NCBI GenBank assembly: GCA_017936785.1
Contig: JAGBEV010000055.1
Span: 1-64,000 of the forward strand
From: Lachnospiraceae bacterium
Lineage (GTDB): Bacteria; Bacillota; Clostridia; Lachnospirales; Lachnospiraceae
DNA: 64,000 nucleotides
Direction of reading: 5' to 3'
The first letter of the stretch is position 1; each line of letters starts with the position of its first letter. A model generated the notes under the pieces. The model saw nothing but the letters and a program-made list of their open reading frames with translations. It was not told the DNA's origin and did not search any database. Below, in pieces: positions 7,861 to 16,533 of the stretch. Both the position numbers and the translations under genes were made by a program.

Positions 7861-8319
7861 CTACTCATAAGCATGTTGTACATAAATCGTATCCGATTCT
7901 GAAAAATCAATATTTTTTATTATATTATATTTTAGTAATTTTTGCATCTCTTCTGACAGATTATTAAAGTTTAGGGGGATTAAGGGATAGGATACTTTTG
8001 TATAATATTCATGGAGGGTACATATTCCTTTTTTGGTACAATCATCGGAATCATAGTAAAATAAGCCCTTTTTTGAAAACTCCTCTGCCACTTCTGTTGC
8101 TCTTGGGGTCAGATCAAATCGAATTTTGCACTCGGATGAAAATGAAAGTTTTTCAAAGAGCTCCATGAGCCGGTCGGCACGTTCTCTGTCTTCACATACA
8201 AATTCAGGAAGATTTCCACATCCTGCACTGCAAAAGACGGCAATATTTCCATTGCTGTCAACAGCATACCATTCCATATCCATGTGCGGACACTCTCCTT
8301 GGGAAATTCTACTCATCAT
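7861..8319 (-). CDS. Hypothetical protein
   Basis: A 152-residue cytosolic protein. The N-terminus contains MEWYAVDSNGNIAVFCSAG followed by a cysteine pair, a pattern I associate loosely with uncharacterised immunity-like families, but I cannot name one. Cysteines also occur near residues 94 and 99 (DDCTKKGIC). Start codon is ATG at 8319 or 8316, with GGAG upstream. Its stop lies at the nupA ribosome site, so nupABC transcription probably passes through this gene. Confidence 0.6.
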   Translation of the reverse strand: MMSRISQGECPHMDMEWYAVDSNGNIAVFCSAGCGNLPEFVCEDRERADRLMELFEKLSFSSECKIRFDLTPRATEVAEEFSKKGLFYYDSDDCTKKGICTLHEYYTKVSYPLIPLNFNNLSEEMQKLLKYNIIKNIDFSESDTIYVQHAYE

Positions 8320-8343
8320 TTTGCTCCTTTATAAATTTGAATT

Positions 8344-8970
8344 CTATATCCTGACCAGATTATTATCAACAATATATTTTAAATTACACCTGTTAAGCAT
8401 CCAGCTCATATCCCTGGCTCCGTTTTTATAATCTATAATCTGCTGTTTGATCTCATCCGATATACTATCATTGATTTCCCGGACTTTCTCCTCTATAGCT
8501 GAAACACCCAGCTTGTCCGCTATAAAGTCCAGCCGTATATCATATTTATCAAACTCCGAATTTAACAATTTATTGACCGCTTTAATATAATCCTTTTCAA
8601 ATTGTATACTCAGGTCTACTGCAGTCTCTGAAATGATCTTTGTTAATTCCTCAAGTACATTTTCTAATTTCTCTTTCGTTGAAATATCATACCAATATCC
8701 ATTCTCCGGACGATAAGACATACCTCCTACAATATTATTTACAGGCAGCTTTCCATAAGTTTTACACCACAATATAAAATCTGCATTTACTTCTACACTT
8801 TCATACGAGACATTCCACTTAGACGAAAAAAAATCTATTTCAAATACCAGATCCTTTACTGTTTTCTTTAAACAATTCTGACTCTTCAGATATTTCCATC
8901 CCGTTGCCTCGGCAAGCCCGCTATATAGCGTCGTTTTCGCTTCTTCTACAGAAAGCAGGTTTTTCATCAT
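8344..8970 (-). CDS. Hypothetical protein
   Basis: About 208 residues from the ATG at 8970 (GGAGG six bases upstream; the ATG at 8976 is too close to the RBS). There is no signal peptide or membrane segment. An N-terminal region with alternating strands (LVFEIDFFSSKWNVSYESVEV) recalls DUF4304-like proteins, while the C-terminal half is helical. It is transcribed from promoter block B upstream and is followed after 24 bases by the 152-residue hypothetical gene. Function unknown. Confidence 0.6.
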   Translation of the reverse strand: MMKNLLSVEEAKTTLYSGLAEATGWKYLKSQNCLKKTVKDLVFEIDFFSSKWNVSYESVEVNADFILWCKTYGKLPVNNIVGGMSYRPENGYWYDISTKEKLENVLEELTKIISETAVDLSIQFEKDYIKAVNKLLNSEFDKYDIRLDFIADKLGVSAIEEKVREINDSISDEIKQQIIDYKNGARDMSWMLNRCNLKYIVDNNLVRI

Positions 8971-9025
8971 ATTCATCCTCCGTGTTTCATTTAAACGCTT
9001 TCAGATAAGTGACCGGAAAGCTTAT

Positions 9026-9263: not shown

Positions 9264-10595
9264 ATGGAACAACAATTCTGTATGCGGGATTTTGCACGTT
9301 ATACAATTTTAAGTGTATTGGGAACCTTAGGGGTATCCTGTTACATTTTAGCTGATACCTTTTTTGTGTCAAAAGGCTTGGGTACAAACGGACTTGCTTC
9401 CTTAAACCTTGCAATTCCTGTCTATAATTTCATTCACGGAACAGGACTTATGCTTGGTATGGGCGGTGCAACAAGATTTTCCATCTTCAAAAGTCAGGGC
9501 AAATATAAGGAAGTCAATGAAATCTATACCAATACCATATATCTTGCCTTATTTTTTTCAGCAGTCTTTGTCCTGCCCGGCTTATTCTTTTCTGATCAGC
9601 TGGCAATACTTTTAGGAGCAGACGCAAGTATATTGGAAATGACAGATACTTATCTGCAATGGCTGTTAGTTTTTTCACCCGCTTTTATTTTAAATGATGT
9701 GCTGCTCTGCTTTGTAAGAAATGATGAAAGCCCACAGCTTTCCATGATGGCTATGCTGATAGGCAGCTTTTCCAATATTGTGCTTGATTACATTTTTATT
9801 TTTCCTATGAAGATGGGTGTTTTCGGTGCTGTTTTTGCTACAGGTCTGTCACCGGTCATCAGCATCATCATTATGCTCCCGCATTGGATCAGTAAGAAAA
9901 ATACATTCCATTTTATAAAGACAAAAATAGAAGCTGACATCATAAAGCAGGATCTGTCATTAGGTTTTCCTTCTTTGATCTCACAGCTTTCTTCCGGTAT
10001 TGTAATGATCACTTTTAATGGGATTATCCTAAAATTAGAGGGAAATACGGGAATTGCCGCTTATGGTGTGATCGCCAATATTTCCCTTGTGATCGTAGCC
10101 ATATACACCGGAATTGCCCAGGGAATCCAGCCGCTTATCAGCACTTTTTACGGCATCGGAAATAACAAGCAGGCAAGAACGGTGCTGCGGTATGCTATGG
10201 TGACCATGCTGACCGTATCCTGTGCGGTTTATCTGCTGCTTTTTGTTTTTGCCCGGCCCATTACTGCTGTTTTTAACAGCGAAAACAATGTGGAATTACA
10301 ACGAATTGCAGTAAGCGGACTGAAACTGTATTTCGTATCGGTTGTTTTTGTGGGATACAATATCATTTTAGCCACATTTTTCACTTCCGTAGAGAAAGCG
10401 CTGCCTGCCCATATTCTGTCGATTTTACGAGGACTTATCCTGATCATTCCAATGGCATTTTTAATGTCGGCATTATGGGGAATGACCGGCATATGGCTTA
10501 CCTATCCGATAACGGAATTTATTACTGCATTACTTGGATTTGTAATATACAGGCATTATATATTTCAAAGCAAAAAGAAAGGAAATACGGATTAA
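9264..10595 (+). CDS. MATE family efflux transporter
   Basis: A 443-residue integral membrane protein with about twelve helices in two halves, typical of the MatE family (MepA/NorM-like). The N-terminus contains ILADTFFVSKGLGTNGLASL, the usual first-helix signature, and the linker contains YGVIANISLVIVAIYTGIAQG. It would export cationic drugs or metabolites in exchange for sodium or protons. ATG at 9264 follows GGGAGAG by a few bases. It is one of very few plus-strand genes here and is preceded by a promoter and an attenuator-like terminator, so induction by a translation inhibitor or ligand is likely. Confidence 0.92.
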   Translation: MEQQFCMRDFARYTILSVLGTLGVSCYILADTFFVSKGLGTNGLASLNLAIPVYNFIHGTGLMLGMGGATRFSIFKSQGKYKEVNEIYTNTIYLALFFSAVFVLPGLFFSDQLAILLGADASILEMTDTYLQWLLVFSPAFILNDVLLCFVRNDESPQLSMMAMLIGSFSNIVLDYIFIFPMKMGVFGAVFATGLSPVISIIIMLPHWISKKNTFHFIKTKIEADIIKQDLSLGFPSLISQLSSGIVMITFNGIILKLEGNTGIAAYGVIANISLVIVAIYTGIAQGIQPLISTFYGIGNNKQARTVLRYAMVTMLTVSCAVYLLLFVFARPITAVFNSENNVELQRIAVSGLKLYFVSVVFVGYNIILATFFTSVEKALPAHILSILRGLILIIPMAFLMSALWGMTGIWLTYPITEFITALLGFVIYRHYIFQSKKKGNTD

Positions 10596-10623
10596 AGAAG
10601 TCCACAAGACAATATGTTTGAAT

Positions 10624-10983
10624 TTATAATTTCATAAATGTGTCCTTATCCAGATAATAGTTTAATGCTTTTACCAATTCCTCATTGGTCACATCGCTTT
10701 TTTGCCTGAGGGCATTGATGATCACATCTTGAAAAATATCCGGCACGATGGAGCGGTCCATGCCATTTGCAACAGCAAAGTCCGGTATGATCTCTTCATC
10801 AGTTTCATCATCAAACTCAGGCGGAGCCGTAACACAACAAGGAGTCGTTAAAAGCAGTTCCTCATCCGCCTCATAAATATGCCAGTCATTATCTGCATAA
10901 ACAGCAGGTTCTCCTTCTTTCAGATACTTATCTTTTACCAGATCAATAACATCTTCAATGGTACATTTTATATTTTGTTTCAA
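10624..10983 (-). CDS. Small acidic protein of the NADAR operon
   Basis: A 119-residue acidic protein starting at TTG (10983) with GGGGG seven bases upstream. It resembles the DUF7716 type as I remember it: a central TTPCCVTAPPEFDDETDEE acidic stretch and a C-terminal helical part reading VIINALRQKSDVTNEELVKA then LNYYLDKDTF. No enzymatic motif is visible. It is the last gene of the macro-RlaP-RlaP-NADAR operon, 34 bases after the NADAR stop, and may be an accessory or immunity component. The convergent MATE gene ends 28 bases away. Confidence 0.65.
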   Translation of the reverse strand: MKQNIKCTIEDVIDLVKDKYLKEGEPAVYADNDWHIYEADEELLLTTPCCVTAPPEFDDETDEEIIPDFAVANGMDRSIVPDIFQDVIINALRQKSDVTNEELVKALNYYLDKDTFMKL

Positions 10984-11017
10984 ATAATCACCCCCTGTTT
11001 TGATCTATCTGCCAGCC

Positions 11018-11854
11018 TCAATCATCTATTTCATTCTCATATTTTCGCAGTCTTGCAATTTCTTCTCTTACCTCCATCAGCGCAAAGCCCAACAGGTTGC
11101 TTCCCCGCCAGTCATTGATATCACACTGTTTTGCTTCTTTTTCTGTCATTCCGATTCCCCAAATAGTATCATAGGGGCTTGCCTCTGCCAGTATGGCATC
11201 GCCGGTACTGAGCAGACATTGCCTCGCCTTTTTTAACTGGGAGAACTTATAGTAGTTGCCTGTCAATACGATCAAAGACTTAAACTCATTCCAGATGTCT
11301 TCATCAAAGCCCCTTACCTTTCTGCCCAGTCCTTTGATCTCTCCTTGTGTTCCAGCCTTCATAATAAGTTCATTTGTCTCCTGGTCTCCAAAAAGCAATG
11401 CCTTCTTGGACATCATATATTGTTCCATACAGCAATACTTTATGTGCCCCACATAAAAATCAGCCATATACCACTGACTAAAGCATTCTTTCCCCACACT
11501 GCCATCCTCGCCCGGATGATGACCCCAGAAAAATATGGTTTCTCTTTTCCATCCATCCCTCTGCTCTTTTCTGATCCTTTCGTTGGAATACGCATATTCC
11601 TTTGCTGTTTCCCAATTATAGATCCAGAAACCCTGATGATGTTTTAAATTGGATTTTTCCAGGCTCCAACAAACAGGGGCAGGAAATTTTTTATCATATT
11701 CTGCCTGCTGCTCTTTACTCAGCTTATGATACCACCCGGCAAATTCCATGGAATACGCTTCTCCATATCCCATTCTCCAGCCTATACTTCCCTGAGGAAT
11801 ACCGGGATATTTTAACCATACCGGTGCCATCACTCTCTCTGTTTTGTCTGGCAT
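11018..11854 (-). CDS. NADAR family N-glycosidase-like protein
   Basis: A 278-residue protein with a C-terminal NADAR (YbiA-like, PF08719) domain from about residue 105. Diagnostic elements are IFFWGH, FSQWYMADFYVG, CCMEQYMMSKKALLFGD with the glutamate expected for catalysis, IKGLGRKVRGFDEDIWNEF, LLSTGDAILAEASPYDTIWG and GSNLLGFALM. About 100 N-terminal residues are extra. NADAR proteins cleave N-glycosidic bonds of ADP-ribosyl or riboflavin-type substrates, and some remove ADP-ribose from guanine in nucleic acid. Neighbours with a macro domain and nucleotidyltransferase folds support an ADP-ribose or nucleic-acid repair role. ATG at 11854 follows GGGGGATAAAG. Confidence 0.88.
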   Translation of the reverse strand: MPDKTERVMAPVWLKYPGIPQGSIGWRMGYGEAYSMEFAGWYHKLSKEQQAEYDKKFPAPVCWSLEKSNLKHHQGFWIYNWETAKEYAYSNERIRKEQRDGWKRETIFFWGHHPGEDGSVGKECFSQWYMADFYVGHIKYCCMEQYMMSKKALLFGDQETNELIMKAGTQGEIKGLGRKVRGFDEDIWNEFKSLIVLTGNYYKFSQLKKARQCLLSTGDAILAEASPYDTIWGIGMTEKEAKQCDINDWRGSNLLGFALMEVREEIARLRKYENEIDD

Positions 11855-11879
11855 CTTTATCCCCCTCTCTATCAGATTG

Positions 11880-12197
11880 CTATTTCTCTAAAATCTTTAA
11901 AACCCACTCAAATAAAGTTGCATTTCCCTTGTGAAACTGGACAAGGGTTTTCTTCAGATCCCATCCGTTAATATCCAGCACTTCATCAAGCTGCCATTCA
12001 ATGACATCTCTTTTTTCCTGAAGGCTTAAATAATCATTTCCGGGGCGTACATAGACAAATCTTACATCATAATCGCTATCCGGCGATTCCACACCCCATG
12101 CCCTGCTGCCGGATTCCACTGCATATAAAACTCTCACATTTTCTTTTTCTTCTATTTCTGCCAGTTTTTCCTCAATCTCTTTTCTGATGTCCCTCAC
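11880..12197 (-). CDS. RlaP-like nucleotidyltransferase, C-terminally truncated
   Basis: A 105-residue protein starting at GTG (12197), overlapping the preceding stop by four bases. It carries the nucleotidyltransferase signature GSRAWGVESPDSDYDVRF near residues 30-47, with the two metal aspartates at about 42 and 44, as in PF10127 proteins. Relatives are about 230-260 residues; here the protein stops soon after FHKGNATLFEW, so the helical C-terminal half is missing. It may be inactive or act together with the longer paralogue next to it. Second nucleotidyltransferase of the operon. Confidence 0.75.
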   Translation of the reverse strand: MRDIRKEIEEKLAEIEEKENVRVLYAVESGSRAWGVESPDSDYDVRFVYVRPGNDYLSLQEKRDVIEWQLDEVLDINGWDLKKTLVQFHKGNATLFEWVLKILEK

Positions 12198-13216
12198 GAA
12201 AAATCACCTTCTATTGCCTTTCTGTTCACGTATTCAACAAATTGTTCCACCTTTTCCATGTCAGGATTGTCCGGTAATTTTGTATTCTGTGTCGCAGTCT
12301 CTAATTTACTTTCATAATCAGATAACATGTCATAGAATTCCTTAGAAAATGTTTTGTCTTCCTTCTGGAAATCTCCTCTCCTTATGCTCTTGAGCAATTC
12401 CAGATCATCCACTCTGTGAGTTCTGATTTCACCTTTTTCCAGAATATCTATTGCCATCATGAAAAGGCGTATCAGATGCATGGCATGTTTATTCAGATGG
12501 TCATCATCCTTTTTCTTATTACGCTTACCGATCTTGTCATAGTCCCTGATCACGTTATTCATAGCACCTAACATATTTTCATAATCCCGTAATGGCAAGT
12601 GCTTATATTCTGCATCTATGAATATTTCCGTCTGAAACTCCGGATTATCCGACTCATCAATATAAATATGGATATTGCCTTTTTCAAACATTTCATTCTT
12701 CCGCCTGAAATCTTCCAAAGCATTTTTAACAGAATTATAAATATGCTGCTCCCGTTCCTGCTGCGGCATGGAATCTCTGGCAATGGCATTCTGCAGCCTT
12801 CTCAACTGGGCGCTTGCGTATCCTCCAAAGGACTTTGCCGCTCTCTTTGACAAAAACAGGTTCTTATGATCTAATAACTCCTGCCCTAATGCGGTCCTGA
12901 TCAGATACTGGTCATCATCCAATCCCAACAGCTCTATGGTGTTAGGATTACACTCCAGCAAAAGCTTCACGATTTTGTTAAAGGAATAGATCACCGTATC
13001 TGTGCCATCATCCTCATATTGTTCAAATTCGGTTAATCCCAACAGATCTGAGGGCAGATTCAATGTGATCCCTCTAAAATCAATGTCACTGTTTTCATTA
13101 TTTGTTCCATATGCATAACTTCCTCCAAGACCCATGAGAATTATGCGTTTCCCAAGCCTTGGATTTTCACGAAGGAAATCATATTCAGATGAATTCATGA
13201 TCTTAATAAAATCCAT
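12194..13216 (-). CDS. RlaP-like nucleotidyltransferase
   Basis: A 340-residue cytosolic protein of the DNA polymerase beta-like nucleotidyltransferase fold (PF10127, RlaP type). The active-site motif is GGSYAYGTNNENSDIDFRG at about residues 31-49, with aspartates 44 and 46 as metal ligands. A helical C-terminal half includes the conserved stretch HAMHLIRLFMMAIDILE. RlaP-type enzymes have been linked by gene neighbourhood to RNA repair. ATG follows the macro-domain stop by two bases and overlaps the truncated paralogue by four, so translation is coupled. The nucleotide and acceptor are unknown. Confidence 0.82.
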   Translation of the reverse strand: MDFIKIMNSSEYDFLRENPRLGKRIILMGLGGSYAYGTNNENSDIDFRGITLNLPSDLLGLTEFEQYEDDGTDTVIYSFNKIVKLLLECNPNTIELLGLDDDQYLIRTALGQELLDHKNLFLSKRAAKSFGGYASAQLRRLQNAIARDSMPQQEREQHIYNSVKNALEDFRRKNEMFEKGNIHIYIDESDNPEFQTEIFIDAEYKHLPLRDYENMLGAMNNVIRDYDKIGKRNKKKDDDHLNKHAMHLIRLFMMAIDILEKGEIRTHRVDDLELLKSIRRGDFQKEDKTFSKEFYDMLSDYESKLETATQNTKLPDNPDMEKVEQFVEYVNRKAIEGDFS

Positions 13217-13218
13217 TG

Positions 13219-13743
13219 TTATTCCTGCTCCCTATAATACCTGTTTACCTCTGCCTCATATACTCTTTCCGTGTTTTCATCAAACAAGACCCACTCCACC
13301 AGGTCTATCTTTCCGGCATTTTCTTCCAGAAACCCTGCTACAGTACCAACCGCTATCTTCGCCGCTTTATCCACAGGAAAATGATAGATTCCGGTAGATA
13401 TGGATGGAAATGCAATCCTGCGGATATTATGCTCTACCGCCAACTTCATGGAATTATAATAACAGCTTGCCAGCAATTCCTCTTCGTTCTTTTTGCCGCC
13501 ATTCCATACAGGACCAACGGTGTGGATCACATAAGCGCAGGGCAGATGATACCCTTTGGTTATCTTTGCCTGACCGGTTTTGCAGCCCCCAAGCAGCCGG
13601 CATTCAAATAAAAGTTCCGGTCCTGCGGCACGATGAATCGCACCATCAACGCCGCCACCGCCTAAAAGACTGGTATTTGCTGCATTTACAATTGCCTGCA
13701 CATCTGTAATTTTTGTAATATCTCCTCTGATTGTTTTTATCAT
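13219..13743 (-). CDS. Macro domain protein (ADP-ribose binding/hydrolysing)
   Basis: A 174-residue single macro domain of the MacroD/YmdB class. The adenine-aspartate region [17 protein letters not shown] starts at residue 7, the catalytic glycine-rich loop [14 protein letters not shown] at about 28-41, and the phosphate loop reads ISTGIYHFP near 120. Such proteins bind ADP-ribose and remove it from proteins or O-acetyl-ADP-ribose. AAAGG precedes the ATG. It is the first gene of a tightly packed operon with two nucleotidyltransferases and NADAR. A TATAAT at 13798-13803 on the minus strand, just past the previous gene, may be the operon -10, but its -35 is poor. Confidence 0.92.
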
Positions 13744-13814
13744 CTCTATACCTTTCTAACCTAAATCCCTTACCATAAACTTGAATTTTAAAATTATATC
13801 CCCCTTATATCTTA

Positions 13815-14369
13815 TTAAGATTTCAGACGGGATTCCAATATTTTCATCTCAAGCTGTATATCCGTTTTTACCGCCTCAGCCCCAAGATTATCTTCTTCAG
13901 ACACAATGTGAAATTTCATATCATTTGAAGAATTATAGATATCAATCAATTTTAAATATAAGCTGACGGGAAACTCATAAGACCACGATTCTCTATACCC
14001 TAACAAACCATATTTTTTAAGGATGCAGGTCATAGCCTCCAAAAAAGAGTTTAAAAATTCAAAATAATCAAAATGAAATTCTTTAACAGTCTCTAATTTC
14101 TTACTTTCAAAATCCTTGTAACTTTTAATGACCACATGTAAAGAATCATTCTCACACTCCAGCTCCCAAATATCCGTTGCCGGTTCCCTATGTGCAACAA
14201 AAGTATTCTTTGGTCCATCATCCGTTAAATCGCCATGAGCATATATAAGTGCCAGCATCAGATCATTTACAAAATCATTGATATAAGAATAGTCAAAGAA
14301 ATGCTTTAAACTGTCATCCTGCATTTCCCCCATGATCCAGCCTGAGGAAATTCTTAATATCTGAAACAT
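13815..14369 (-). CDS. Hypothetical protein
   Basis: About 184 residues from the ATG at 14369 (MFQILRISSGWIMGEMQ), which has AGGAG and AAGG upstream; the longer frame from 14408 lacks an RBS. The N-terminal phrase LRISSGWIMGEM followed by FFDYSYIN and an acidic middle recalls orphan immunity-type proteins, but I cannot assign a family. It precedes the macro-domain operon by 71 bases on the same strand and could be part of it. Confidence 0.55.
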   Translation of the reverse strand: MFQILRISSGWIMGEMQDDSLKHFFDYSYINDFVNDLMLALIYAHGDLTDDGPKNTFVAHREPATDIWELECENDSLHVVIKSYKDFESKKLETVKEFHFDYFEFLNSFLEAMTCILKKYGLLGYRESWSYEFPVSLYLKLIDIYNSSNDMKFHIVSEEDNLGAEAVKTDIQLEMKILESRLKS

Positions 14370-14427
14370 ATCAACCTTACTCCTGAAAATGTTTTTATCT
14401 TCAATCACTTCTGAACTGTGAAATCAC

Positions 14428-14470
14428 ATAATAAATATAACATATTATAAACAAACTGTGTAAATTGGTA
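14428..14470 (-). promoter_or_regulatory. AT-rich promoter block, copy C
   Basis: On the minus strand TTTACA (14459-14464) precedes two overlapping AT-rich -10 candidates, TATAAT (14444-14449) and TATATT (14434-14439). The downstream TTATGTGATTT is shared with copy A. It lies upstream of the gene starting at 14369. Confidence 0.35.
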
Positions 14471-14587
14471 AAAAACTTTCTACATCTGCAAAAAACCTAA
14501 AGATTACGAGAAAAAATCCGAAATATAATGTAACAGATCAGTAAAAGGATTTGCTATTTGAAATAATTTGATCACGGAGGATCGTAT

Positions 14588-15649
14588 ATGAATATAAATG
14601 GAAATAGCATTTTCATGGGTGCCTATGAAGAAAGAAAACATCAAAGTTACCAGCTTAATCCCAGGCTGTTGAATGTTAGCGAAGAGAAACAGGCTGAAAT
14701 CGAAAGCAAGCTTGAAGCTGCAATAAAGAGTATTGATTGGAATAATGATAAATCTCAGAATGCAAAAGTATCTATTTCAAAGGAAGATATGGATTTCTTA
14801 TGTAGTGAAGAAGGCTTTGAAAAGATGAAAAAAGATGCTGCTGATCTTTACCTGACAAATGCAAATATACAAACGGAAATTGCAACGGGAAGAGAAGAAA
14901 CGGATGCATTTTGGAAAAACACCGGCAATCAATGGCTGATTTTCAGCGAATATCTGTATAACAACGATTTTTATACAAATATGACCGATGAAGAAGTGCA
15001 GGAAACGGAGAAGACTCTTGCACAAATAACAGCAGGGATGGATCACTTGAGCCGGACACAATACACAACAGGTATAGAATTCAGTGATTATTTTGGACAT
15101 GGCGCAAATTATTTCATGAGCTCCAGTGAAGTTTTGGTGGAATTGGAAGCATCAACAAGTGCATTAAGATATTTTTCAGATAAATTTGTTTCAGAAGATA
15201 AAAAAGAACAGTTTGATGAGTTAATCAATCTTTATCATACCCATAATACTGAGATCATAGGAGGATATGTGAACCCTATAGAAAGTTTTAATAAAATGGT
15301 GCATAATATCCATTCGGGCAAATACCCTGATTCCAGTGTGTTAAAAATATCCGCTGAAAAAATAGTAGATGAATATAAATATACATTATTGTTAGGAAAT
15401 ATTTCCAAGACGGATACAGAACGGGCTGCTTTTCAGAAAAAAATCACGTCTGTGTTTGATGCAATATTTCAGAAAGCAGATTTGTCTGAGACATTCTGGA
15501 CACAGCTAAAAGATACCTATTTAGCTTATACAACTAATGATAGTGAAGATGAAGCTTTTAGGAATTATATATGGGATAACTCTTCGTTCACAATGAATCG
15601 TATTCAAAATTATTGGTATCATATGATAAATCAAGATTTTATTTATTAG
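14588..15649 (+). CDS. Hypothetical protein, plus strand
   Basis: A 353-residue soluble, acidic, mostly helical protein without signal peptide or transmembrane segment. I do not recognise the family; there is no obvious repeat or catalytic motif. The start is well supported by GGAGG seven bases before ATG, and a TATAAT about 65 bases upstream could be its -10. Its 3' end overlaps a small minus-strand frame by eleven bases. It is the only plus-strand gene between 10.6 and 59 kb, which suggests independent acquisition. Confidence 0.6.
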   Translation: MNINGNSIFMGAYEERKHQSYQLNPRLLNVSEEKQAEIESKLEAAIKSIDWNNDKSQNAKVSISKEDMDFLCSEEGFEKMKKDAADLYLTNANIQTEIATGREETDAFWKNTGNQWLIFSEYLYNNDFYTNMTDEEVQETEKTLAQITAGMDHLSRTQYTTGIEFSDYFGHGANYFMSSSEVLVELEASTSALRYFSDKFVSEDKKEQFDELINLYHTHNTEIIGGYVNPIESFNKMVHNIHSGKYPDSSVLKISAEKIVDEYKYTLLLGNISKTDTERAAFQKKITSVFDAIFQKADLSETFWTQLKDTYLAYTTNDSEDEAFRNYIWDNSSFTMNRIQNYWYHMINQDFIY

Positions 15650-15770
15650 TATCCCTGCCACAGTGGGGACACCTGACTTTTAACAGCATCCATACACAAG
15701 AAAAAATAATCAGCAAAATAGCTATAATAATCAATATAGGATTCTTTCCTGGAAAATTCAAACTGATCAA
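15639..15770 (-). CDS. Small membrane-anchored zinc-half-site protein
   Basis: A 43-codon frame from TTG at 15770, overlapping the stop of the zinc-ribbon gene above (TTGA overlap), so it could be made by coupled translation. The peptide has a clear single transmembrane helix (ILIIIAILLIIFSCVWMLL) followed by VRCPHCGRDTNK, a CxxC knuckle. Composition is far from random, but there is no independent strong RBS. No family recognised. Confidence 0.4.
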   Translation of the reverse strand: MISLNFPGKNPILIIIAILLIIFSCVWMLLKVRCPHCGRDTNK

Positions 15771-16327
15771 TTCTCATCTGATCTCCAGATATGTATCCGT
15801 TCATTATTTACTCTCATCATGGCACTTCTAATGATTCCCTTACTTACCATATCTTCAAATATTTCATAATATCGTTCCATAAACGATTCTTTATCATCAA
15901 ATTCAGTATTATCATATTCCAGATTACAGCCCGGCATTATATAGCCTTTATGTTCACGCCAGTCCGGTTTCTCATCATTCCATTCAGCATGAAGCAAACC
16001 TTTCCATTGTTTTCCCTTTTCAGAAACGAGAAGTTTTTTACTGACAACAGCGCTTTCCGGTTTAAAAAAGTGCAATTTACTATTGTCTTCAATATCTTCC
16101 AATATAACTCGTCCGCACTCCGGGCACTGATACATATAACGCCCCATGGAAGAACAGGAAAACCGTATATTCTCTTTTTCCCTGTGATTCATCGTCTCAT
16201 CATCAACGAGCTGATCAATACCGTTCCAAAAATCTTCATAATCCTGATCCGGCAGAACATGAGCTTTGTATGAAAGAAAATCCGTTTGATCAGTTATCCT
16301 TTTTCCGCAAATACAATAGAAATGCAT
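15767..16327 (-). CDS. Zinc-ribbon-containing hypothetical protein
   Basis: About 186 residues from the ATG at 16327 (MHFYCICGKRI), preceded by GGGAGG; the frame from 16351 has no RBS. It has CxC at the N-terminus and CPECG near residue 60, probably one zinc site. The C-terminal half (NLEYDNTEFDDKESFMERYY) is acidic and ends IHIWRSDEN. Proteins of this kind recur as orphan genes in gut Clostridia; function unknown. Followed immediately by a small membrane zinc-motif frame. Confidence 0.6.
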   Translation of the reverse strand: MHFYCICGKRITDQTDFLSYKAHVLPDQDYEDFWNGIDQLVDDETMNHREKENIRFSCSSMGRYMYQCPECGRVILEDIEDNSKLHFFKPESAVVSKKLLVSEKGKQWKGLLHAEWNDEKPDWREHKGYIMPGCNLEYDNTEFDDKESFMERYYEIFEDMVSKGIIRSAMMRVNNERIHIWRSDEN

Positions 16328-16533
16328 TTTTCCTCCCTGTTTCCGCTTCAATATTCAATATGCATTTTGCATGTTGGCAAGCATTCCCACGGCAAGCAAT
16401 GTCAAAAACAAAGATACCATTTTTTAATATTTATGATATTTCTTAAGCATGGAACCAGCCTCCAACTATATAATATATCTAAACTTCCTGCATGCCAAGT
16501 GGCAATTAATGCAGAATGCTTATAATAAAAACT

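Follow-up and report, generated by a model that had tools for sequence, protein, structure and literature searches.

The operon and its products

We analysed positions 1 to 64,000 of contig JAGBEV010000055.1 from a gut bacterium of the Lachnospiraceae (assembly GCA_017936785.1), a stretch of 64,000 nucleotides hereafter called the window. The subject is a group of five genes that the original prediction had described as a tightly packed minus-strand operon coding for a macro domain hydrolase, two RlaP-like nucleotidyltransferases, a NADAR protein and a small acidic protein. Five open reading frames (ORFs) are found on that strand (window positions 13743-10624), and all the genes, together with the four intergenic gaps of 2, −4, 25 and 34 bases, were reproduced; the identities proposed for the macro protein, the full-length RlaP-like protein (here RlaPL) and the NADAR protein are borne out by Pfam (Table 1). 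The small fifth protein can be given a named family because of its DUF7716 match. Translation of the first three genes may be coupled, to judge from their spacings of 2 and −4 bases. As argued below, we take the operon in this exact form to be a local mosaic, built around two RlaP-family genes and bearing a scar, the truncated RlaP; within the junction between this gene and NADAR (Table 1), the sequence AGAGAGGGGG sits upstream of the NADAR start.

Table 1. Positions of the operon features in the window and the matches on which their identification rests
Feature	Position	Strand	Match
MacroD-type macro domain protein, 174 aa	13219-13743	-	PF01661, E = 5e-48
RlaPL, full-length Pol-beta nucleotidyltransferase, 340 aa	12194-13216	-	PF10127, E = 1.8e-16
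Truncated RlaP, 105 aa, GTG start	11880-12197	-	RlaP (PF10127), E = 2.2e-42, profile positions 1-96 of 249
Junction, from end of RlaP homology (~11903) to NADAR start	11855-11902	-	DNA match to genome G002 stops at 11903
NADAR, YbiA type, 278 aa	11018-11854	-	PF08719, E = 2.7e-49, residues 108-266
DUF7716 protein, 119 aa, TTG start	10624-10983	-	PF24832, E = 2e-16

The macro protein scores above the cut-off of the NCBIfam O-acetyl-ADP-ribose deacetylase model NF001664 (225.6 bits versus 200) and its residues 4-170 align with human MACROD2 (4iqy_A, E = 1.5e-52). Its loop GGGGVDGxIHRAAG, which we take to carry the catalytic Asp, differs from that of MACROD2 at a single residue, as expected of the MacroD type. 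The NADAR protein passes the cut-off of TIGR02464 (riboflavin biosynthesis intermediates N-glycosidase). Its residues were mapped via an alignment to 8bau_A, using the list given for the P. nicotianae NADAR in PMC11543638: all seven active-site positions (E43, K50, R79, W89, E125, D130 and W133 in that protein) are kept, as E144, K151, R178, W188, E224, D229 and W232, and two further contacts are conservatively altered (D86 to Glu and R93 to Lys). The Glu at position 224 is the reason for assigning the protein to the YbiA type. The loss of active-site residues, which the original prediction had named as a finding that would count against it, is thus not seen in NADAR, and both enzymes look intact and active as judged from their sequences.

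About 100 additional residues had also been noted at the N-terminus of the NADAR protein. This extension (~107 residues) is present and conserved: 42 of 51 relatives match from residue 1-9 onward, and in an alignment of 36 sequences (the window protein and 35 of those 42 relatives) most positions of the extension, which includes a SIGWRMGYGE motif, hardly vary. An AlphaFold2 model including the extension has a mean predicted local distance difference test score (pLDDT) of 91.7 and a predicted template modelling score (pTM) of 0.90, with pLDDT block means of 77-95 over residues 11-110, a confident prediction for the extension. NADAR matches occur in 38 of 250 genomes of the family.

That the two proteins pass the NF001664 and TIGR02464 cut-offs would fit a role in metabolite housekeeping, in which the macro protein deacetylates O-acetyl-ADP-ribose, NADAR cleaves reactive riboflavin intermediates and the nucleotidyltransferases are bystanders. 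However, the conserved extension lies outside the Pfam NADAR match, and such a role leaves the meetings with RlaP or RlaPL at loci L296, L298, L240 and L046, described below, without explanation; we consider it very improbable.

The RlaPL-RlaP pair and the truncation of RlaP

RlaPL qualifies as a member of the RlaP family through a full-length match combined with the nucleotidyltransferase motif, which we take to be GS followed by DxD. It matches PF10127 with 61.1 bits and the phrog_388 nucleotidyltransferase profile over residues 20-336 (E = 2.8e-56), and its residues G32, S33, S43, D44 and D46 are invariant across 34 aligned sequences. Searches by sequence gave no solved-structure relative for either RlaPL or RlaP (two RlaP matches had E = 0.35 and 0.87). 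RlaPL was found in 31 of the 250 family genomes (as fragments in G163 and G196) and RlaP in 22; both are present in 19, compared with 2.7 expected. In 17 of these 19, the window's genome included, RlaP and a full-length RlaPL share a strand and lie within 1 kb of each other; RlaPL is the upstream gene in 16 and the downstream one in G239. The two exceptions are G196, where a remnant of RlaPL stands beside RlaP, and G156, where the genes are on separate contigs. The conserved unit is this RlaPL-RlaP pair, not the five-gene order.

The candidate 'five-gene conserved system' had to be rejected, and the conservation of gene order that was looked for in support of the original prediction was not found, the order being absent from all loci examined. 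These included 51 loci of NADAR relatives from a species-genome collection (with flanks of at most 8 kb, shorter where a contig ended; the relatives were found by a scan with short peptide patterns and are not exhaustive) and 35 bacterial RlaPL/RlaP loci, that is, 34 RlaPL or RlaP loci plus L202 from a genome of the same genus (G002). MacroD, RlaPL and DUF7716 are absent from all 51 NADAR loci; an intact RlaP follows NADAR directly in L046 (from a Vallitalea metagenome-assembled genome), KptA is present in L053 and a PARG-like match in L038. DUF7716 is likewise absent from the 35 RlaPL/RlaP loci. Of these, only L137 has a NADAR, at a distance of 7 kb from RlaPL; three of the 35 show a microbial PARG-like match and none shows KptA. 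DUF7716 matches are rare altogether (4 of the 250 family genomes, the window's own included, and a single plasmid), and none of the other four operon genes was detected by tblastn at the three other family loci. A search of the open-access literature found no macro-RlaP-NADAR operon.

What had been described as a short second RlaP is a truncated gene. The 105-aa product retains the nucleotidyltransferase domain (residues 1-98) and its motif but not full length, since the C-terminal ~160 residues are gone and the last 7 codons are unrelated to intact RlaP. In G002 (L202) the gene occupies the same place and is intact, coding for 259 aa with 87% identity over residues 1-99; the RlaPL of G002 is 86% identical to that of the window and its ORF overlaps RlaP by 4 bases, as in the window. 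The window RlaP departs from the G002 protein directly after ...GNATLFEW, where matching ceases (residue 98), and seven unrelated codons then lead to a stop. The missing C-terminal part was searched for throughout the window and was not found. The truncated protein was further compared with its relatives (alignment of 21 sequences; 22 matching rows in the family besides the window's own, which include G149, a weak match with 35% identity, G291, with a TAG inside the frame, and G157:C40, a split gene). The open frames of these 22 rows code for 181-335 aa, none being as short, and 21 of the 22 matches end at residue 98-101. A distinct minimal enzyme was rejected as a candidate, all 22 rows being longer. 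No outstanding repeat and no break in base composition were seen at the RlaP/NADAR junction.

In comparison with G002, the non-synonymous proportion is 0.067 over the remaining 98 codons of RlaP and 0.086 in RlaPL, synonymous sites being near saturation. Truncated RlaP has 3 window-specific versus 4 G002-specific changes at 95 sites, i.e. no excess, and RlaPL has 16 versus 19. These figures make it appear that the truncation either happened recently or left a remnant that still serves some purpose. In G002 the intact pair is preceded by a helix-turn-helix (HTH) gene and a DUF6036 nucleotidyltransferase gene (L202:6313-7654), conceivably, as a guess, a toxin-antitoxin pair.

Truncation of RlaP at its junction with NADAR, together with a gene order seen in no other locus examined, is what would be left if recombination had by chance brought a MacroD gene, of a common kind, and an orphan NADAR gene of Firmicutes next to the conserved RlaPL-RlaP pair; the genes would then share a transcript without joint function, RlaP being the scar. 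The neighbourhoods of the separate genes agree with such an origin: in the 46 of 51 NADAR loci with a called ORF, no common neighbour could be recognised by eye except among closely alike loci, and the closest relative of the macro gene within the genus (G005, L203) adjoins genes for NAD synthase and an isochorismatase-type protein. Against chance assembly stand the coupling suggested by the 2 and −4 base spacings and the further meetings of macro, NADAR and RlaP or RlaPL in L298, L240 and, in fused form, L296, and of NADAR and RlaP in L046. We regard it as unlikely, while taking it seriously.

Recurrence in mobile elements and links to RNA repair

Forty loci were obtained when viral contigs were scanned with the RlaP alignment. 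One of them (L296:4524-5954) codes for a single 476-aa protein with a Macro domain (residues 20-131) and a NADAR domain (323-476), ending 13 bases before RlaP; the two domains are separated by ~190 residues of unknown kind. On one strand of L298 come a macro gene whose product has a weak HTH match at the end, then genes for a weak VWA-like and a 168-aa protein, then NADAR, a gene for a 105-aa product and RlaP. L297 looks similar to L296 in its backbone and its RlaP shows 88% identity, but neither macro nor NADAR is present in the available stretch; the cargo therefore varies. Contigs of the L296-L298 type, filed as viral, look like other mobile elements, with recombinase-like and ParB-like genes. 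Among phage RlaPL loci (the best 80 of 211), L240 carries NadV, macro, NADAR and NAD synthase genes in series with overlapping ends (9727-12994), 4 kb from RlaPL; its macro protein has 21.2 bits with PF01661, just below the cut-off of 22. NADAR is found in two of the 80 loci (L240 and, as a weak match, L211), a phrog_335 macro-like protein in 8 and a second RlaP in none. The meeting of macro, NADAR and RlaP or RlaPL is rare but recurrent, in arrangements that differ and include a fusion, and such recurrence in varied form speaks for a process in common more than for chance alone.

The association of RlaP with RNA repair, invoked in the original prediction from genomic context, was seen again in plasmids. 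There are 31 plasmid records with an RlaP match, and three of the four best, which were examined, show an RNA-repair neighbourhood: RlaP adjoins RtcB on a Treponema saccharophilum plasmid (L338; RtcB domain confirmed), is part of a Hen1-Pnkp-RlaP series next to an annotated WYL gene in a plasmid of Enterococcus raffinosus (L339:1-5759; Hen1 and Pnkp domains confirmed) and follows slipin, next to an annotated RtcR, on a Citrobacter freundii plasmid (L340; slipin domain confirmed). In the fourth record, from Subdoligranulum and unannotated, the partners searched for are absent apart from a 53-residue kinase match (E = 6e-4).

RlaPL has a partner of its own in phages. A CCA-adding enzyme is encoded in 40 of 81 phage RlaPL loci (L208-L287), and 25 of these have it directly downstream of RlaPL in the same orientation; the ORFs, as called mechanically, overlap by 8 or 11 bases in 15 of the 25 (e.g. 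L232:6998-8359). When RlaPL proteins are grouped at 70% identity, 18 of the 25 groups have the CCA-adding enzyme, 10 of them directly downstream, and at 60% identity the figures are 7 and 2 out of 10 groups. Such frequent proximity suggests that the two form a phage tRNA-end repair pair and that their target is the tRNA end. Thg1 occurs in 11 of 82 loci and a cluster of AAA_33 kinase-like proteins in 8 (12 and 4, respectively, by tblastn; one member of each was checked). Among the 82 loci KptA occurs once, in Clostridioides phage AR1086-1, at a distance of 5 kb from RlaPL.

KptA is also encoded in the window's genome, outside the operon. Within the family it accompanies RlaPL in 15 of 31 genomes versus 21 of the 219 others (odds ratio 8.8, P = 8.5e-7; P = 3.7e-6 without the window's own genome and the fragments). 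The other pairs give odds ratios of 2.7 for RlaPL and NADAR (P = 0.027) and 5.0 for KptA and NADAR (P = 0.00013); RNA ligase was compared with RlaPL (P = 0.031) and with RlaP (P = 0.28). A further Lachnospiraceae genome, G024, has KptA, NADAR and a microbial PARG close together on contig C94 (L294:7702-10209), and an RlaPL-RlaP pair on another contig.

Proposed function and known systems

The interpretation we favour, with a chance of being right that we put at about even, is that of a mosaic operon founded on the Lachnospiraceae RlaPL-RlaP cassette and combining RNA (probably tRNA) end repair with ADP-ribose clean-up. A MacroD-type hydrolase would have come to stand in front of the cassette, and a YbiA-type NADAR and DUF7716 behind it, the second RlaP ending at the NADAR join. 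RNA, most likely tRNA, would be cleaved or trimmed, and RlaPL would restore the lost end nucleotides for ligation or recharging. KptA, if it acts as described for its family, would strip 2'-phosphates in an NAD+-dependent reaction that releases ADP-ribose phosphates (PMC9503650). The macro enzyme may then clear these ADP-ribose phosphates or remove ADP-ribose from phosphate ends, and NADAR may take ADP-ribose off guanine or clear related derivatives; action of NADARs on guanosine-ADP-ribosylated RNA and of some macrodomains on phosphate-end ADP-ribose is described in PMC11833690.

Several observations weigh against this interpretation. The exact five-gene set was seen once, and in none of the other loci examined; MacroD is missing from all 35 bacterial RlaPL/RlaP loci; macro (MacroD-like) and NADAR occur together in just 2 of the 40 viral RlaP loci (L296 and L298) and a macro and a NADAR in just 1 of the 80 phage RlaPL loci (L240). 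Nine family genomes have both RlaPL and NADAR, within 10 kb of each other only in the window's own and in G157. No RNA ligase is encoded by the five genes and PF09414 is absent genome-wide (RtcB was not searched for genome-wide); the operon therefore has no coupled RtcB, Rnl or Pnkp ligase by which an RlaP-type repair system would be recognised. No promoter or terminator signals beyond chance were detected in 10400-14700. The P-values for co-occurrence are uncorrected for genome size, descent and number of tests, and part of the co-occurrence may reflect general accessory content, because the NADAR-KptA and NADAR-RlaPL pairs also exceed chance.

A bolder claim, which we hold to be doubtful, is that macro, NADAR and RlaP or RlaPL constitute an unnamed form of RNA repair in which ADP-ribose is stripped first, from the bases and ends of modified RNA, and trimmed ends are then rebuilt. 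If true, one operon would reverse both ADP-ribosylation and cleavage, and the set would be reassorted, at times as fusions, in the mobile elements of gut Firmicutes and in large phages. Direct genomic linkage to RNA-end nucleotidyltransferases, seen for NADAR and macro and also for their fusion before RlaP, provides a testable substrate: ADP-ribosylated, trimmed RNA.

The lack of DarT, which had been stated for the locus, holds for the entire genome, where PF14487 has no match at E <= 0.001, so that no DarTG system can be assigned. A genome without DarT, the retained NADAR catalytic residues and a strong match of NADAR to the PADLOC candidate model PDC-M42C (E = 9.8e-48) would all suit an operon protecting, as the original prediction had considered, against an outside ADP-ribosylating agent, such as a phage or competitor toxin, with NADAR and macro undoing ADP-ribosylation of guanine and of phosphate ends and RlaPL rebuilding damaged RNA. 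However, a defence-island setting was not recognised: reading the window ORFs by eye revealed neither defence-island nor prophage genes (the PADLOC scan covered six proteins), and a Pfam scan of ten window proteins gave no ARG/PARG domain, Nudix or WYL regulator, unlike the systems of PMC9503650. The anti-phage NADAR model NF053876 scores 26.7 against a cut-off of 240. We judge protection from an outside agent improbable; the operon may have some role in defence.

The surroundings of the operon are as follows. A sixth ORF on the same strand (13815-14408, 197 aa), 71 bases upstream of the macro gene, could share its transcript; it matched no family in Pfam, NCBIfam, PADLOC and phrog profile scans. 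Small proteins with no convincing family flank the operon at 7861-8976 and 13815-16351, and a weak resemblance to the MntA antitoxin (E = 0.0029) is below cut-off. The remainder of the window, read by eye, looks like ordinary chromosome with transport, regulator and hypothetical genes; no phage structural genes were recognised in this way among its ORFs, and no tRNA genes were found in it.

The favoured combination of RNA end repair and ADP-ribose clean-up resembles several known systems in part. DarT1-NADAR (DarTG1; PMC11543638) shares the NADAR residues needed for guanine de-ADP-ribosylation, and its NADARs also carry an N-terminal extension of the YbiA fold; unlike DarTG1, the window has no DarT, and the equivalent of E. 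coli C7 D171 is Glu224, as in the YbiA type. For NADARs outside DarT operons, PMC11125620 presents the role as not settled. The ARG-centred counter-ADP-ribosylation systems (PMC9503650) likewise remove ADP-ribose with no transferase coupled to them, and macro and NADAR figure there as variable extras; the domains by which they are recognised are those missing from the ten proteins scanned. RlaP has been proposed to restore nucleotides lost from RNA ends before ligation (PMC7824862). RlaP repair systems belong to the same family, PF10127, with relatives neighbouring RtcB, Hen1-Pnkp and RtcR, whereas the window operon has tandem RlaP-family genes, the second truncated, and macro and NADAR instead of a ligase. 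Finally, macro genes occur in a subset of Thg1-kinase operons (PMC2904730). Like the operon described here, these Thg1-PNK-MACRO operons place a macro protein beside an RNA-end nucleotidyltransferase; in the window, RlaPL stands in place of Thg1 and the kinase, and NADAR is added.

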